Positions 23,850-32,060 of a stretch of DNA of 64,000 bases are shown piece by piece; positions within the stretch are counted from its first letter, which is position 1; every line of letters starts with the position of its first letter. A program made the position numbers and the translations under genes. Under the pieces are notes generated by a model, which saw only the letters and a program-made list of their open reading frames with translations, was not told where the DNA came from and did no database searches. This DNA is from Rhabditophanes sp. KR3021. Its lineage: Eukaryota > Nematoda > Chromadorea > Rhabditida > Alloionematidae. The DNA lies in NCBI GenBank assembly GCA_963281155.1, contig CAUJLY010000003.1, positions 1-64,000 on the forward strand. Direction: 5' to 3'.

Positions 23850-25044
23850 CACACATTTAAACGAACCTTTATACCCCATTTATTACGTGACTACTTCTTT
23901 TTAATACAAATTCATTAACAAAGTTTGTTTTAAAATGTGTTAAACAAATTGCCATATATTTCAAAAGGCATGAATGAATAAATAAATGATATCAGAAAAT
24001 GTCCTATTTATAATTTGTATTGTTTAGCATTTAAAGCAATTCCATATCCAGAATATAATTCTTTGGAAATGTTTAAAATGTTTGCATTTACTTTACAAAC
24101 ATTACAGATGAGGGTTGTTTCATTGTAGCGCTTACTTTGGATGTGGTATCCTAAGTATCATCATAGTAGCCAAGACATATTCAAATAACTATTACGTTTT
24201 AAATAACGTTTGGAATCTTTCAAAATCACTCCCAACACATTAAAACTAATTCCCAACACTTTAAACCAATTCAAAATGGTTATAAATTAATGTCCACGGC
24301 TTATACAATAACTCGCATTCTTTCTTAATCCCCACTAACACGTTACAAATAGTTTGCCGCACTTTTATTTTTAAAAGTGGCCAAAAGGTGTATATAGGAA
24401 ACACCTTCTCGCCATATATCAAAAAAGTGTATACTCATTTTTGAGGTTATTACTGTAGCCTTTGAACAACATAAATCGTTTCTATGATCATTGAGTTGTT
24501 TTGAAACTTCACTTAATTTGTTAAAATAGCCTATATGAGGATTAAAAAATGGGTTGGCTAATAAAAGTCTGGCTAACCATATGCCTGAGAAAAGTTGATA
24601 CCTGCCAAACTGGCGCTCTTGTTCTGTACAATCTCCTTGATTGATTATTTTGTGATGTATGTTTTTTATTAAAAATAACTCTTGTCCGGCTATTTAGGAG
24701 TAAACAATGTAGAAAGGAAACTTCAATAATTAATAATATTGTATCTAGACGTAAACTCATCCTTTTTTCTTAAGAAGAATTTTTCGGTTTTAACTGTCTT
24801 TACTTCCTGTTATTTGTTTAAGGAAGAACAGTAAAAGAGGTAAGAAAAGGAATGTGTATAATTAAAAAATTTATTATCAATGCCAATTATAGAAATATTA
24901 ATATAAAAGGATAGTAACATTTTTTTTAATAACTATTATTTAGTTTCATGTCTAAACAACGGAAAGAAAAATGTGTTGGAACCATAATTGTGTGATTACA
25001 ACGCAGGTATACATCATATCCGAGACATTTGATAATTGACAACC
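23850..25044. other. Intergenic, no supported gene
   Basis: AT-rich. An open minus-strand frame at 24542-24760 has no motif or start context. Nothing else was seen. Confidence 0.4.
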
Positions 25045-25647
25045 CTAATCTTCACGCCAGGCGTTTTCTTTCCTTATCTAAAAATGAATCAATTGAATTA
25101 TTTAAATGAATGAAAAAAGTTATTTCAAATGACCTGTTCCTCTTCTTCAGCAGTAAAGTTATTACGAATGTTGAAGATACGTTGAATCTCATCTCATGAT
25201 TTACCTTTGATCGTGTTTGCAACAGTATTGCAGGTAACATCCAGAAGACCTTTAATGCCAAGATAATTGGCGGCTAAGATAAGTTCAAAGAGGGTTCCTT
25301 GTTCAACCTTTAAAAATTCAGCGTCCCATGACGGGATATCGTCAGTTCTCTTTTCTCTTGCTTCGCCTTCATCGTGATGTAGTGGATCATTTTTGTGGAA
25401 GTTACACCAAGTGATGACAAGCTTGAGTATATTTGAGTTGCAGTTAGGTAGTACTATGGGATCTTTACTGTTCATATCTTCTAATTGAGTGTCGATTCCA
25501 TCACCTAAATGAGATTGTTTTCAAAATTTGTTTTTTCTAATAATTACCGGTTAAAAAGCCAGAAAGAAATTCAGATTGCTTGACTACATCATAATCAAGA
25601 TCAAATTTTTCGTTGTCGCCAGAGAGAACGGAAAGCGTGTGAGCCAT
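25045..25647 (-). pseudogene. skr: Skp1-related gene interrupted by one in-frame TGA
   Basis: Skp1 links F-box proteins to Cullin-1 in SCF ubiquitin ligases. Three exons (25505 boundary: 25548-25647, 25134-25504, 25045-25077) encode a full-length Skp1-like protein. The N-terminal BTB/POZ-type fold, WCNFHKNDP, the acidic linker region, [40 protein letters not shown] and then DEIQRIFNIRNNFTAEEEEQ and IRKENAWRED are clear. Between GKS and DEIQ, where the family has a Pro or Ala codon, the sequence has TGA (25194-25196). Everything after it stays in frame. Truncation there would remove the helices that bind F-box proteins. A recent nonsense mutation is the simplest reading. Confidence 0.85.
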
Positions 25648-25939
25648 CTTTTTGTTAAAAGTAAGTTTAACTAAAAATATAAAGAGTTAAGACACCCCCA
25701 AACAATGTCCAAAATCAATGATAAAAATGTAAGTGTAATGACTTTGCATAGGCACACATCTTCTGCCAAATACTCATTTACTATATAAAATAACAATAAC
25801 CAATACAGTCAAAACCACAATACTGTTTAATGAAGACTTTATAAGCGATCAAATTATATGGGACCTTTACGATAACAGTTATCACCAGTCGAATAAAAAG
25901 GCATGTAAACATTTATGTGATCGTTCTGACAATAATTGT

Positions 25940-26360
25940 TTTATTGCCTTAGCATACATTTTTTATAGAATCTTTTCGTTATACAATCATCTCTTTGATA
26001 TAATATTAACACATACTTTCTAATAATTAACAAGGTAATAAATATGATGATACCACTTAGAAACATCAATGCATAATAGACTGTAAACTACACATTCACA
26101 ATTTCTTTAATTCTTCTTATAAAAATTGAACCTAGTATTATTAATATTGTCAATCCAATATAAATAAATAAAGTTCTTGATGATTCATAAAATTTTTTCA
26201 TTTTCAAAGCTAACACACCTTCAAATAGTTCCAAAAGCAAATTTCGAACATTCATTACTTATTTCACGTATAGTTTCAAGGAGTCTTACAATGTGATCAT
26301 TTGAATTGTTGAGATTGTCAAAAAAATAATTAAATGAGCAAGCTGAGTTTGTTAGTGTTT
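25940..26360 (-). pseudogene. Decayed membrane protein gene
   Basis: The minus strand reads SFNYFFDNLNNSNDH... and IVRLLETIREISNECSKFA up to a TGA. A shifted frame then gives a membrane span (TLFIYIGLTILIILGSIFI), an in-frame TAG, a second span (ALMFLSGIIIFITLLIIRK) and a basic Cys-containing tail. Two hydrophobic helices in one frame separated by a stop, plus a frame change, indicate a broken gene. Family unknown. Confidence 0.4.
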
Positions 26361-26719
26361 AAGTACAAGTGAATATTACGTAACAGATGATGCATATCTA
26401 AAATGTATGTAGCAATCTTTTTTGCGGATTACTAATTTTAGTAGGAATACGGAAATGGATAGATACACGAAACTAGAGATAACGGACATTATTTTTAATA
26501 TTGATCAAAGTTCTATAATTACAAAGTATTAAATGAATATAATTATCACAGTTTAAATGAAGAACTATGACGTTTTGTTTTTTTCTTTTACAGACAGTGT
26601 CATTTAATGTAAAATAACCCTTTATAACTGGATCATCAAAACAATCCACCCATTAATTCATATTAACTCGTATTTACAAAAACACTATCTATTTTTATAA
26701 CCCACTCATTTTCGGAATG

Positions 26720-27340
26720 CTATTTTCTTGGTGATGATGGTAAAAATGAAACAATTGTTTGAATAAGATTTTGACATAACTGAGGAAGTTCCCTTCCACC
26801 ATCTACATTTAAACCAGATAAGTTAGGGAAATGGTGTCGTATTAATATGCTGAACATGCTTATTTGATTTATGTAGTATTTTGAAAGATCTGGCAATGAA
26901 GCACTTTTGACTTTATTTCCTTAATACTAGATAATATTTTTAGCAGTATACTTGAACACATTCCACTAAAACTTTCAGGAATATCACACGAAAATTGGCA
27001 TAAATAAAAGTCTAAAGGCTCAATATGTTTAGCTCTTTTCCTGAAATATGTAGAATAGGGATAATTAATTTTAAAGTTTACTGAATATACACAGTTATGT
27101 TAAGTTTATTGATACAACTCCAATGAGATTCAGGAATTTCTTTCATTACTTTGTCAAAATCATCTATTGTTTTGATGGTAGTGTATCTGACTTTAAAACT
27201 GTACTCTAAAATAGATGTATAATCGTCAAGATTAAATGTTAAATAATGTTGCTTGCCCAGAGGCTCAATGTCATGAGCATTAAAATTATTTGTTAAGTTA
27301 AAACAATAATTTGATATATAAAGATAATATCACTATATTT
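26720..27340 (-). CDS. F-box/LRR-like orphan, partial gene (5' end not found)
   Basis: Three exons join in phase on the minus strand: from about 27340 to 27082, 26952-27040, and 26720-26929 trimmed to start at 26919 (introns 41 and 32 nt). They encode about 165 residues with a repeated leucine/isoleucine pattern (SHWSCINKLNITVYI, HFPNLSGLNVDGG, LIQTIVSFLPSSP). This resembles the C-terminal part of nematode F-box-associated or LRR-like proteins such as the fragment at 63.2-63.9 kb. No ATG lies in frame at the 5' end, and the S28 gene's last exon begins only 120 bases further upstream. The gene is therefore probably truncated or decayed. The function cannot be given. Confidence 0.45.
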
Positions 27341-27457
27341 GAATATGCATCAAGTATATTTGCTTATTTACACGATGTAGTAGTATTGAAATTTATTCAA
27401 ATAAACAATTCAACTACTATAAATTTAATAATTAAACTTTGAAAAGATTCGCATTTA

Positions 27458-30150
27458 TTAATAAAACAAAAATGCAATAGCAGTTGATAAGGCAAGCATT
27501 GATAGTGAAATAGTTGAGGAGGCTCCCATACTTCTTGCAACATATTTTGTAACTTGACCTTGAATGAATGTTCTAGCATTTGCAAGACCAGTTGGTTCAT
27601 TTTTATACGTTGGATACATCTAAATTAATAAATGGAATTGAAATTTATTACTGTTAAGGTGATGACGTATACATCTCAATATGTCTTATTTATTATATAT
27701 GTAGTTATATTGGTATAATAAGCCAGTTATCTTATTAACTTTTTGTTTGTCCTTTGCTCACGTGTCTCTATCCTATTTACCCATCGACCTCATGGGCTAC
27801 CTTATGAAGGTTCCACCGAGGTGGTGTCTTGCTACTACACAGTCACTGGAGGAAGAAGTTTATATTCTACCAACACCCAAAACAGGAGAGTCAAGATTGG
27901 AAGTCACAAACTAACTGAGGATTTGCTAACCCAGCAATGTAGTAGAGCCAAGATAGTTATGGGAAGGACCAGGAAAGGAAGATACGACGTCGCATGCCTG
28001 CAGATAAATGGAATGAAAAAAATATGAGGGTTCACAGAATGGTTGCTGGCACCTTTCTCTCCGACCCAGAGAACAAGCCACATGTAGACCATAATAATGG
28101 CAGGAAAAGGGTAATCAAGTTGGAAACTTGAGATGGATCACATCTTCTGAAAACGCGACGTATGCAGTTCGAAAAAGAGTATACAAATGCAGCCTAAGTT
28201 GGAGATTGTGGGAGTCTACAGATCCATGGTGGAAGCAGGCAAATCATTACTTGGTAACTATGTGAATAATGGTAAGATGATTGGTAAATATTGTGCAGGC
28301 ATGTTTATGCTGGGTTTAGATGGAAATTTTGCTAACTCTTTTCGCTGCATTTGCCTTAGTTAACTATTTTTGTTTTAATTTTTTGTATTAATAAATGCGT
28401 AACTAACATCTCCACAATGTCCGATTCCTTCAATTAGAATTGAGTATGTTTGAGTGGCAGTGTTGTTAATTCTTGGTACTGAACGAGTCCATTCATCTAA
28501 ACTTCCGGTAGGCAAAACAACATATGTTCCATTGTAATTACTAGCTCCAAAATATGTCTTTCCTCTTTCGACGGCGCTATTGATGTAATCAATGCTTACT
28601 GTTGAATCGAACATGTCAGTGCACATATCGATATAGTAGTTTAATGGAATAATTGATCCAAAAATATTTCTTCCTTGATCTGTTGTTTGCAAAAAGCCAA
28701 TTCCCATATTTTTATTTGCACAGCATAAAGCCATCCATCCTCTTGCTTCTAAAGCTGAGTTAGTAGTTAAATTCCAGTCAGTTACGCTGAGTTGTTTAAT
28801 AGTACCCCAATAGTCATTGTATATTGGAGCACCTTTTGGAACTCCGTAAAAAGCATTATACCAATCATTTAAAGCTTGGAGTCTAAAAATTGGATCAGGA
28901 TTTTTGTTGTCAATCATAGTCATGACTTTGCAAAGACCTGCCACGGATAAACCGTTTTCTGTGTTCTTATTTTGTCCATCGAATGTATACTATTAATAAT
29001 AAAATTAATTGACCAAAATGAATGTAATACCTGAATGACTGATTGGAAAATTCCAAACATTCCACTCAAGAAGTTTGTAATATCAAGTTGGGTAGATTTA
29101 TCAGCCAAAGGTGGTTGAATATTGAAAACCTTAGTCAATTTATTTCTTCCATCAAAAGAAAGAGATAATTGTTGAAGTTGAATGAATGATGCATTGACAG
29201 CATTATAACAATCCATGCTTGTTGTTTTAACAGAATCTTGGACACCCTGTGCATACCCAAAGTAATCAGTCTAAAAATTGGGTTTAGTCAAATAAATGTT
29301 ATACTTACTTGTACTTTTACAATAGCACTAGAACAAATACCTCCAGCAAAAAGATTTGCATATCTTTCCATTGCTACTGAAAATAAGAATGTGTTAACAT
29401 ACTCAAAACATACATATTGCTACATTAAATATTATTTAAACTTGCCCGCACACAAAGCTCCAGGATAAGAACCTAAAACATGAAATAAATGTCAGATATA
29501 TTTTAATTTACCTCCAAAGAGAATCCATTTCGGATTAGAAAACTTTTTGCTAGTTTCTGTAACAAAGACAGCCATGTCTTCTAGTGCTTGTTCAGGAGTC
29601 AAATATTGCAAATTTGGAAAAGATAAACTTCCAGTAGTATTAAATGGTTGAGAAGGTCCAAAGAATCTGTGTTCTAGTTGGTATAATTGAGCTGATTGGT
29701 TTTTGCCCATCACAACCCATTGATAATCGTCGTTTATTAATTTAGCCTCGGCCATTCCTTCCCCTCCGAGCATCAAAAAAATGACACTTTGTCCATCAGT
29801 TTTATTGAAATAGATTGAATTCGATTGAATTCTCTACGAAAATATTTAACTATATAAAAAAAGTTTACCTGAGACCATGTTCTAGTATCACTACTATTAA
29901 AGTGATCAACCTTTTGTGTAATCCAATCTTCTTTTATATTTGGGTAAGAAGGTGGGTTGGCAGCTTCTTGAGCTTCCTTTTGAAGCAAAGCATCTAGCCC
30001 ATGAATATTAGCATAATGGATTCTTTCGTGATGATTGAAAAAGGAATTTCTTGTGGATCTTCCAAACAAAAATGGAGGCAATAAATTAGTTTGTCCAAAG
30101 ACCTGAATTAAAGCAGAAACTAAAAAAGTGAAGGTAACCAAGTATTGCAT
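27458..30150 (-). CDS. S28 serine carboxypeptidase (lysosomal Pro-X carboxypeptidase / thymus-specific serine protease family), probably secreted and lipid-anchored
   Basis: S28 peptidases cleave C-terminal residues or dipeptides next to proline in lysosomes or outside the cell. Seven exons (29869-30150, 29512-29833, 29446-29472, 29309-29376, 29031-29270, 28408-28989, 27458-27619) give 560 residues. Seen: signal peptide (MQYLVTFTFLVSALIQVFGQ), EHRFFGPSQPF, nucleophile motif GGSYPG, GFLQTTDQG, catalytic Asp in LPTGSLDEW and His in GHCGD. Exon 7 completes the family's HC(A/G)DMYP motif and adds a C-terminal helix and a hydrophobic end (ISLSMLALSTAIAFLFY) like a GPI signal. Intron 3 appears to be GC-AG (GCGG|GCAAGT). 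The last intron (27620-28407) is 788 nt and contains an antisense endonuclease pseudogene. All triad residues are intact. Confidence 0.9.
27743..28363 (+). pseudogene. NUMOD4-HNH-NUMOD1 homing-type endonuclease, decayed, inside S28 intron
   Basis: Opposite to the host gene, this stretch (about 45% G+C against under 30% around it) encodes three modules in order. First is a NUMOD4-like region (YYTVTGG, LYSTNTQ, GRYDVACLQINGMKK). Second is an HNH core (RVHRMVAGTFLSDPENKPHVDHNNG, then NLRWITSSENA). Third is a NUMOD1/helix-turn-helix end (IVGVYRSMVEAGKSLLGN, KMIGKYCAG). The modules lie in three different frames: shifts occur in an A-run near 28018, near 28115 and near 28190. Such endonucleases are typical of phages, large DNA viruses, bacteria and organelles, where they promote their own spread. 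They are unusual in animal nuclear genomes. It could be horizontal transfer, old virus DNA, or contamination, but its position between two clean S28 exons argues against contamination. Confidence 0.8.
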
Positions 30151-30409
30151 GATTACTTCTTTTTTAAATGGCAGTGGTAATGTCAAGTGTTAAGAATAAG
30201 TATGCATGCTTATCACTAAGACGCGTCATATTCACTGATAAGATAGTACAATTTTTGTTAATTATGTAAAGTGTCTTTAAATACTGATATCATTTATATA
30301 AGCACTCATTTATATCAATCATTTTACGAGTATATAGAAAAGTAAAACCTTGTACATTGTTTGTAACAAATAAAAAATTAAACAGATAGCAATGTTTCAT
30401 ATTTATAAA
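30151..30409. promoter_or_regulatory. Upstream region of the S28 gene
   Basis: Contains inverted GATAAG/CTTATC-type words (TTATCACTAAG and CACTGATAAG around 30208-30245). Paired GATA sites are typical of nematode intestinal promoters, so gut expression is possible. This is inference from motif alone. Confidence 0.35.
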
Positions 30410-31113
30410 TCAAATTTAGATGGTTTATTAACAAAATTATTAGCATTAGAATGTCCAGATTCAATTAATTTTCTGTACTTCAAACGTTTAGACTATTCAT
30501 AAAAGTTGATAAAACGAAACCGATTGAAACTAATGTAAAAAGAACTGTTTTGCATTAAAAGCTTGTTTCTGATCCATATACTCTACATGGTATATATCAA
30601 CTTTCCCCATAGAAGCATAAGCTGCGTCTAGATTTAATCGGAGACAAACATTTATTGATGCTATTAACAATATAATAAAGCAATAAAGAATAATTCTGCC
30701 CATTGAAAAATACTAAATAAATTTAATTTGTTTGTGAGTAAGAAATACCTACTTTGTCATATTTCAAAAAATGAGAGCACAAAATGTGTTGAGTGCAAGT
30801 AATGAGCAATTAAAGCATAAATAAGTGATTATAATTGCATTAAATGATATATATCTTTAGAATCCATTCATTATTAGGAATTTCTTGAGAAAATGCTCTA
30901 ACCAAATTGATAAATCTTGTAGAAATTGTGTTCCATATAAAATAAGTAGTATTAGACAATTATTTATAAACAACATTACATAAAACCGGCAGAATATGTA
31001 CCACATTTTTGTACTATTCTTACGAATGTAAAGAAAAGGAAGAGATTTTGTAAGATTGTTGAAATAGTGCTCCATAGAAGGAGGAAGACATCATCGAAAT
31101 AATCAGAAACCAT
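30410..31113 (-). pseudogene. 7TM chemoreceptor-like pseudogene (array member on minus strand)
   Basis: From the ATG at 31113 the sequence reads MVSDYFDDVFLLLW, ISTILQNLFLFFTFVRI, matching the start of the two intact receptors (NYLDDIII..W, IS..LQT.FFFF). The frame breaks after about 40 codons. Later pieces still match the family: TM4 block (SMGRIILYCFIILLIAS), KVDIYHVEYM and RKLIES. At least two frameshifts or stops separate them. It is on the opposite strand to the rest of the array. Confidence 0.75.
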
Positions 31114-31135
31114 TGTTAAACAAAATTATCAGTAC

Positions 31136-31540
31136 TAATAATATGTAATATTATCATGGGCAAAACAAACAGCTGCATGTATATAGCCTCTCATAATACG
31201 TCCAGATTTTCTAGCTAAATATTAAATGACAATGCCTCTTTGATACCGGATGTTTTCGGATGACCTTTAAGAGTTTCTAGACTAAGATATTCATGTGGGG
31301 TCGTACTTCGTTTATAAGTTTTTAAATACTTAGCTTTTTTGGACCACCTTCAATACCAACCCAATAAATATCTTTTAAATGACTAAGAGTTTGTTATAAT
31401 CCAGTCATATCAGCTAATTTTTGTGGTCTTTTGTAAGTAGGTGTTACAATATTTATTAAAGCATCGTGTTTCTTTGAACCATCGCTAAATTATATTTTTG
31501 GTTGGTTAGTGCAAATGTTTCCTCATTTGCGTTTCTGAAA
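31136..31540 (-). pseudogene. GT43 beta-1,3-glucuronosyltransferase pseudogene
   Basis: The minus strand carries IVTPTYKRPQKLADMTGL, TLSHLKDIYWVGIE, then (other frame) TPHEYLSLETLKG, SGIKEALSF and AAVCFAHDNITYY. These follow the order of the GT43 core (TPTYKR...QLADLTRL...TL...LHWI; ...G...RN.AL; ...FADDDNTY). GT43 enzymes add glucuronic acid in glycosaminoglycan linker synthesis. Several stops and shifts are present, and the metal-binding DDD motif has become AHDN, so it cannot be active. Confidence 0.75.
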
Positions 31541-31989
31541 TTCACGAATAGACATTTCTAATTTTTAACCTTGCAACATGATAAATAACCCACAAAATGC
31601 ACTTAAAATAATAAAGTAGAGATAAACCATCTCTGAAATGGCTTCTTACCAACCACAATTCTTTAAGAGGAAGCCTGGTTTCAAAAGCAGTTTGCCACAT
31701 TTCTGCATTTACATTTCATTAATTAACATCACCATTTTTATTCATTTCAATGTTTACGTTATCGCTTTCTTTAACTCTTGTTTTTATCTAATTATTGGTT
31801 TCGTTTTGGAATCTTGTGTTAAGACATAGCTTTCAAAAGCTGTACATTTTTATCATCAGGTTATTAAGATGGGCGGTGTTTTTTGTGTTCTAAAGTGAAA
31901 ATAAAGTTAAAGAAAGTTATTAAAAACCTTATCACTTTGTACCGTGATCTATTAATATGTTCTTTAATTCCCTGGAAGGCCGAACTTTC

Positions 31990-32060
31990 AATTTTACCAA
32001 ACCAATAAGACAAGACTTTTTAGCTTTTTATTATAAATCAAAAAAGCATACCAAGAAATG
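31990..32060 (+). pseudogene. Chemoreceptor last-exon remnant
   Basis: AAGACTTTTTAGCTTTTTATTATAAATCAAAAAAG-like sequence matches the start of exon 3 of the intact receptor genes (ACTTTTTATC.TTTTATTTTAAATCAAAAAAG). It is followed by the same flank as the other units. The rest of this copy is too decayed to trace. Confidence 0.55.

Follow-up and report, generated by a model that had tools for sequence, protein, structure and literature searches.

Shintrons of mirusviruses carry HNH or GIY-YIG endonuclease genes within GT-AG introns that have no group I or group II character (PMC12768974, doi 10.1038/s41564-025-02190-6). The passages of that report dealing with these introns describe them as the first spliceosomal introns in which such endonucleases were observed, and introns of this kind did not receive a name until 2025, when they were described in viruses known through environmental genomes (PMC12768974). 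Introners, i.e., transposons that generate introns, are a further comparison (PMC12768974, PMC9169325), and the origin of new introns is a long-standing question. NUMOD4 and HNH_3 domains also occur in eukaryotic records of arbuscular mycorrhizal fungi (Gigaspora, Diversispora, and others), with two units in the proteins of Gigaspora and Diversispora. The phage enzyme I-HmuI resides in a self-splicing group I intron. A literature search, with preprints and most subscription papers outside its scope, found no report of homing-endonuclease spliceosomal introns in an animal.

This study followed up a stretch of 64,000 nt (the window) from the nematode Rhabditophanes sp. KR3021 (R. diutinus; contig CAUJLY010000003.1, positions 1 to 64,000), in which an intron contains an HNH endonuclease relic that has sibling copies elsewhere in the genome. 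The mirusvirus shintron is the closest known system. As in shintrons, the window intron and its sibling introns contain a homing-type endonuclease gene, their predicted borders are GT-AG, and Rfam at gathering score detected no family, and no group I or group II structure, at 12 loci including the window intron (degenerate introns could escape this search). Unlike shintrons, which the cited passages place in one viral gene module, the R. diutinus family lies in many unrelated genes of an animal nuclear genome; it is antisense to its hosts, while the same passages give no strand for the nested genes; and one subfamily is fused to a thioredoxin domain. In anatomy, the family thus looks like an animal-nucleus counterpart of the shintron. 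It resembles introners in that similar introns occur in unrelated genes and in that the homology of the youngest copies stops at the donor, and it differs from them in carrying an endonuclease gene, in the absence of terminal inverted repeats of at least 14 nt at the ends of the four introns searched, and in that some copies leave a whole normal intron length. With I-HmuI (PDB 1U3E), the sole PDB sequence match at E<=1 (E=9.2e-9), it shares the NUMOD4-HNH unit, the VDH and later NL of the HNH motif being aligned, but it lies in putative spliceosomal introns and has one to three tandem units.

An HNH relic in the last intron of an S28 peptidase gene

The last intron of the S28 peptidase gene (27620..28407, minus strand) is 788 nt long and runs from GTTAGT to TTTAG, with GT-AG borders. 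The ORF of the exon 5' of it (28375..28989, minus strand; the exon proper ends at 28408) matches Pfam PF05577 with E=1.4e-33, and the final exon (MYPTYKNEPTG..., 27458..27619, minus strand) follows from the reading frame and from paralogues. The two exons join at HCGD|MYP, and the S28 paralogue L071 is continuous across this join. The lengths of four further introns of the gene, with boundaries set by hand, are 41, 38, 39, and 35 nt; an exon may lie within a fifth stretch, of 86 nt. Introns in two S28 paralogues measure 41-44 nt. These results bear out the sequence-only reading that the intron far exceeds neighbours of about 40 nt and that its flanking exons join exactly at the family motif, and it reads as a real GT-AG intron of an animal gene.

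On the plus strand, i.e., antisense to the S28 gene, the intron contains a broken HNH endonuclease relic in three frames. The first frame of the HNH core (VHRMVAGTFLSDPENKPHVDHNNG, 27946..28131, plus strand) matches a family profile with E=2.5e-11 (27946-28128) and sibling L040 in tblastn with E=1.1e-15, and the second frame (NLRWITSSENATY, 28098..28265, plus strand) matches the profile with E=5.3e-7 (28098-28262). The third frame holds NUMOD1-like remains (28151..28363, plus strand) whose profile match is E=0.67 only (28151-28360), weaker than the chance match of another ORF of the window (0.17), and whose DNA is 73% identical to C2:6148592; within it lies the C-terminal motif YAGFRWKFC followed by a stop (28306..28335, plus strand), comparable to HAGFRWKFG in sibling L041. 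Possible, broken NUMOD4 remains (RLEVTN..GFANP, 27860..27945, plus strand) were recognised by eye, with no profile match. The profile was built from other copies and from viral-contig and database proteins, with the window left out, and was run on 2007 ORFs of the window; in 20 shuffles its maximum was 4.0 bits. Pfam alone, run on the four relic pieces with E up to 1, gave no match. As sequence assignments, the HNH core is therefore firm and the NUMOD1 part likely, because its C-terminal motif is common to sibling copies, while the NUMOD4 part is seen only by eye. Of the antisense NUMOD4-HNH-NUMOD1 protein in three frames that had been proposed, the core is confirmed by the profile in two of three pieces, and the flanking modules stand at these lower grades. 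The proposed rise in G+C was also found: it is 0.41-0.45 across 27750-28349 and 0.23-0.40 in the remaining 300-base windows of 24000-32000. The intron DNA resembles three other HNH places in the genome at 66-73%.

The relic is preceded by a copy of a dispersed repeat of about 185 nt (TGTTAAAGG...GGGAACA, 27652..27830, plus strand; BLAST match 27650-27806, right end approximate), which is separated from the acceptor boundary by a 32-nt residue outside all repeats detected (27620..27651, minus strand). At the other end, an AATAAA signal (28390..28395, plus strand) lies 12 nt from the intron donor boundary, and an 11-nt residue (GTTAGTTACGC, 28397..28407, minus strand) carries the 5' splice site at that boundary. 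Removal of the copy leaves 32+11=43 nt, a normal intron size. An 11-nt repeat found at both intron ends (ATTAATAAATG) was rejected as a candidate target-site duplication, as it would leave an intron of only 24 nt. The TGTTAAAGG repeat also stands directly upstream of the HNH relic at C3:3074935 (L043), and elsewhere it occurs solo or in inverted pairs, e.g., about 2 kb apart at C1:2256753 and 2258590 and at C1:3037768 and 3039601; a solo copy at L008 has a 5-nt CAAAT duplication, noted by eye. An identity as an LTR was rejected, the inverted pairs on C1 favouring a DNA transposon end, which the repeat probably is.

Dispersal and chromosomal distribution of the family

Pfam finds 28 HNH_3 matches in the genome, on all six contigs, and three NUMOD4 matches, all above their cut-offs. 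The protein at C5:533129, which at 466 aa is the longest open HNH ORF, gives 77 genome matches at E<=0.01; no nameable gene has this ORF in an intron. When HNH matches within 2.5 kb are merged, with the window included, about 68 clusters result (C1 13, C2 23, C3 14, C4 14, C5 3, C6 1). Seven of the 68 are supported solely by matches with E 0.001-0.01, and the search itself gives lower bounds. Altogether 54 of the 68 clusters were inspected, namely, 45 loci, the window, and eight later loci. Many copies are broken, and several frames are open (L054, 250 aa; L056, 165 aa; L066, 190 aa).

From the contig order, C6 would be Chr6, an X-like chromosome described as syntenic to the S. ratti X (PMC10676810). 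C6 (11.2 Mb) holds one of the 68 clusters (P=7.6e-8 by length), a deficit that is also marked against RVT_1, with 12 of 37 matches on C6 (Fisher 9.3e-6); other families are common there as well (DDE_3, 4 of 8; DUF1280, 14 of 29). In nematodes, germline activity of the X chromosome is often low, so the near absence of the family from C6 would fit insertion into germline-active genes.

At L058 (C5:531000-538000), on the small sixth chromosome, the longest HNH ORF lies between a DDE_3 transposase ORF and a DUF1280 ORF, and in the UniRef protein A0AC35TSL3 the two genes, HNH and DUF1280, seem to be joined into one. Six of the 29 DUF1280 matches in the genome are on C5, in addition to the 14 on C6, and many lie in long ORFs; DUF1280 may be a separate mobile family.

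The genome also has scattered GIY-YIG domains, at 14 places on C1-C4 (loci including L155-L160) and at none on C6. Three of the four GIY-YIG places tested also match a LEM-3-like GIY-YIG profile, below its cut-off, and the match at C3:396736 is probably an ordinary host gene. At L160, both flanking ORFs look by eye like one opposite-strand WDR20-like gene (weak Pfam propeller match, E=0.014), and at L157 an SMP_LBD exon lies opposite the GIY-YIG domain; no clear host was seen at L155, L156, L158, and L159. At L043:3-330 (C3:3072502 on), a GIY-YIG-like relic (MYHIGETVDIKNGKTRQ), recognised by eye and with no Pfam match, is antisense to a cadherin gene that also hosts an HNH relic.

Strand and host genes

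The Pfam search covered 33 loci with 60 ORFs, of which 59 lie on the strand opposite to the HNH gene and one on the same strand. An opposite-strand domain (E<=0.001) was found at 26 of the 33 loci, above the Pfam cut-off at 25 and below it at L067; L059, L022, L017, L066, L050, L036, and L070 had no host match. None of 31 same-strand ORFs (30 from 30 control loci and the one of L066) had a Pfam domain, a control weakened by the fact that these ORFs were fewer per locus and shorter (35-134 aa). A rounded codon-usage score of at least 10 was reached by an opposite-strand ORF at 31 of 45 loci, and a same-strand ORF outside HNH reached this score at four (L014, L041, L058, and L066), two of these ORFs overlapping opposite-strand exons and one being the DUF1280 ORF beside the C5 copy. 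Of the eight later loci, four have an opposite-strand ORF that attains 10. Their same-strand ORFs include a low-complexity one in L167, with a score of 36, and one in L162, with 9.9, which by eye is the element's own thioredoxin tail.

At seven loci, Pfam places pieces of one gene on both sides of the HNH element: SepSecS (L015, 2-262|263-388), myosin tail (L068), DHX helicase (L011, one side below cut-off), cadherin (L038), FERM_N|FERM_M (L023), FMRP KH (L027), and PIG-N (L033, one side below cut-off). By eye, further genes lie on both sides, which we take to be UBE2/RAD6 (L052), glycogen phosphorylase (L060), beta-mannosidase (L036), acyl-CoA thioesterase (L042), a PPTC7-like phosphatase (L065), an LCLAT1-like gene (L054), a Kv channel (L040), ZIP (L041), cadherin (L043), EHD (L163), and presumably calpain (L047, with a 57-nt end piece only). 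Loci with a one-sided match could have a neighbouring gene rather than a host. Two Na/K-ATPase-like genes (L014 and L161) each have an antisense HNH copy nearby.

Element ends and putative splice sites

Putative donor sites were assigned in the window and 13 siblings, and putative acceptors at 11 of these 14 loci, the choice being made by a model or by eye from the reading frame and the host protein. For L056 and L065, a model fixed the donors before alignment; the donor of L054 and several acceptors were placed by eye. Read in the HNH sense, the 3' end has a recurrent order, in which a motif such as HGFKWQY or HAGFRWKF is followed by some tens of bases, often with AATAAA, and then by the host donor site. 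L056 and L065 are 88.6% alike and L054 and L056 78%, and the homology of all three stops 0 nt from the donor boundary, beyond which lie unrelated exons of three different host genes. Likewise, L052, L050, and L026 have similar introns in different genes, the likeness not extending into exons. On the acceptor side, L056 shares sequence with L065, L060, and L014 from 3-7 nt inward and contains repeats of about 33 nt, of which L065 has more; in L065, homology begins 9 nt from the acceptor (a 29-nt match to L054). For L026, the acceptor and donor distances are 20 and 2 nt by BLAST and about 2-4 and 2 nt by eye.

A donor-flush end as a universal rule was rejected, since donor distances in other siblings reach 65 nt (7 nt in L043 and L042, 16 in L033, 17 in L038, 21-38 in L015, and 65 in L027), and in L036 no homology end was found within 150 nt of the donor. 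Removal of the element leaves 33 nt in L052, 45 in L043, 53-64 in L023, and 66 in L033; eight ordinary introns measured 35-44 nt. No target motif was seen by eye in the exon flanks.

Relatives, divergence, and the thioredoxin subfamily

The C5:533129 protein is 98% identical to a UniRef entry of Rhabditophanes sp. KR3021. The named ones among its 31 database matches belong to a viral metagenome (P0019), six glomeromycete fungi, and the worm itself, which supplies the sole named animal protein. Together with the phage enzyme as only PDB match, this agrees with the earlier view that the relic is of a type foreign to animals and familiar from phages, bacteria, and viruses. A scan of genome contigs with the C5 protein gave no relative, viral contigs contained 260 confirmed stretches with relatives, of which 80 were kept, and the environmental protein P0002 as query gave 96 database matches. 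A FastTree phylogeny of 364 HNH units was built, units with fewer than 75 aligned residues (48 of 226) being omitted. In it, 17 R. diutinus C-terminal units and the UniRef entry group with the environmental proteins P0002 and P0039 (support 0.87), which have a build similar to that of the R. diutinus proteins. A clade of eight (0.87) unites the internal units of L058, L053, and L049 with two units from viral contigs and two environmental ones, and two L019 units and one L030 unit are placed elsewhere; the fungal proteins are not nearest to the R. diutinus family. This tree is weak, because the domains are short, and unstable, because a smaller first tree (178 tips) differed, placing L026, L052, and L011 with P0017 (0.85) and not in the main clade. 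L019 (C5:465546-466378) has two HNH units on the small chromosome, outside the main family, and possibly represents a separate arrival.

For recent pairs, NG86 dN/dS values were 0.188/0.210 (L054-L056), 0.067/0.062 (L056-L065), and 0.189/0.213 (L054-L065), with ratios of 0.90, 1.08, and 0.89, respectively. Older pairs gave 0.354/1.212 (L054-L029), 0.360/1.229 (L056-L029), 0.354/0.908 (L054-L066), and 0.275/0.695 (L029-L066), with ratios of 0.29-0.40, and L058 against L054 and L056 gave 0.33 and 0.39. YN00 agrees for L054-L056 (0.86) and not for L054-L065, where it gave 0.50 (90 codons) rather than 1. Because recent copies diverge near-neutrally and older ones under constraint, the family reads as a mobile one that includes dead copies.

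One subfamily is distinguished by a PDI-like thioredoxin domain (24.2 bits in Pfam, where the cut-off is 23.5), with the domain or a tail of it before NUMOD4 in L054, L056, L033, L066, and L162; the evidence is Pfam in L054 and DNA likeness or inspection by eye in the other four. The CxxC active site is altered to CPNS in L054 and CPHA in L056 (by eye). An intron within the thioredoxin part is common to L054 and L056, which argues for copying from DNA or an unspliced transcript and not from mRNA. As a database query, the thioredoxin-HNH protein of L054 found seven environmental proteins.

Discussion

We consider it somewhat more probable than the contrary that the window contains a dead copy of a mobile NUMOD4-HNH-NUMOD1 family that sits antisense inside spliceosomal introns and is a working equivalent of shintrons. 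The dispersal of the family, its antisense position between host-gene parts, and the donor-flush ends of the youngest copies can be read from the DNA itself, as can near-neutral decay against older constraint and the retention of element introns in copies. The HNH gene would be expressed from its own strand, and its enzyme would nick or cut genes that are active in the germline and mostly autosomal, at their splice donors or next to them, where the element would be copied in by repair, at the DNA level. The insert would be tolerated because host splicing removes it, which would work only with the HNH gene antisense and its AATAAA end beside the donor site; the inserted copy would then decay while the lineage survives through the next jump. 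Expression, cutting, target choice, repair copying, and the splicing of element introns are thus the steps that we infer, and antisense survivors could arise from selection alone. As one of about 68 clusters, most of the tested ones adjoining or lying within an opposite-strand gene, the S28 copy most likely arose by spread within the genome and not by a transfer event of its own. The foreign HNH type proposed from sequence alone is upheld, and a separate transfer into the S28 gene is unlikely.

That the element brings both splice sites and creates an intron upon insertion into an exon, the mobile unit then being an intron with an antisense endonuclease gene, is possible, though we hold it only tentatively. 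L056, L065, and L026 leave too little for the 35-44 nt of the eight measured introns, a FERM paralogue in L029 is a single ORF across the L023 insertion position, and none of the three S28 paralogues compared has an intron exactly at HCGD|MYP, the third, on C6, having none at or near it. However, L071 has an intron six codons upstream of that site and L073 one five nt upstream, so sliding is possible; residues of whole-intron size remain in the window, L052, L043, L023, and L033; and the ends of L015, L027, and L038 are not sharp. An ordinary transposon that inserts at random, with only antisense intronic copies surviving as sense copies would bring a poly(A) signal and splice sites, is less likely still. 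Intronic repeats of other elements are known to be biased towards the antisense strand, and the window copy and several siblings have an AATAAA close to their 3' end, but intergenic copies should then dominate, introns of about 40 nt making up by our own estimate about a tenth of the genome, whereas 26 of 33 loci lie beside or within an opposite-strand gene. The donor-flush youngest copies and the near absence from C6, where RVT_1, DDE_3, and DUF1280 are common, also speak against it.

We give very little credence to endonuclease genes domesticated and kept by the host as nested genes: open frames persist in L054, L056, and L066, and YN00 gives 0.50 for L054-L065, yet NG86 ratios are near 1 in recent pairs, many copies are broken, and the copies lie in unrelated genes. 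Equally improbable is a single horizontal insertion into the S28 intron, perhaps from a large DNA virus, as the sequence-only reading had suggested. The HNH type is foreign to animals, P0019 is named as viral metagenome, many viral contigs encode relatives, and two viral-contig units are among those that cluster with the internal units of L058, L053, and L049; nevertheless, the sibling copies in about 68 clusters refute a single event, and environmental proteins, not viral contigs, form the sister group of the main clade of C-terminal units. As a source of the family, a virus is no more than a possibility.

With the family almost absent from the X-like chromosome, a link to germline expression can be put to the test, and a free-living nematode with a chromosome-level genome would permit cleavage tests, RNA-seq, and population surveys. 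More speculatively, and in our view rather doubtfully, animal spliceosomal introns may themselves be mobile units, in which an antisense homing endonuclease opens genic sites and the element supplies the splice sites, HNH and GIY-YIG occurring side by side as in mirusviruses and hinting at a past exchange between viruses of the nucleus and a worm lineage. If this were true, introns would multiply as self-propelled parasites.
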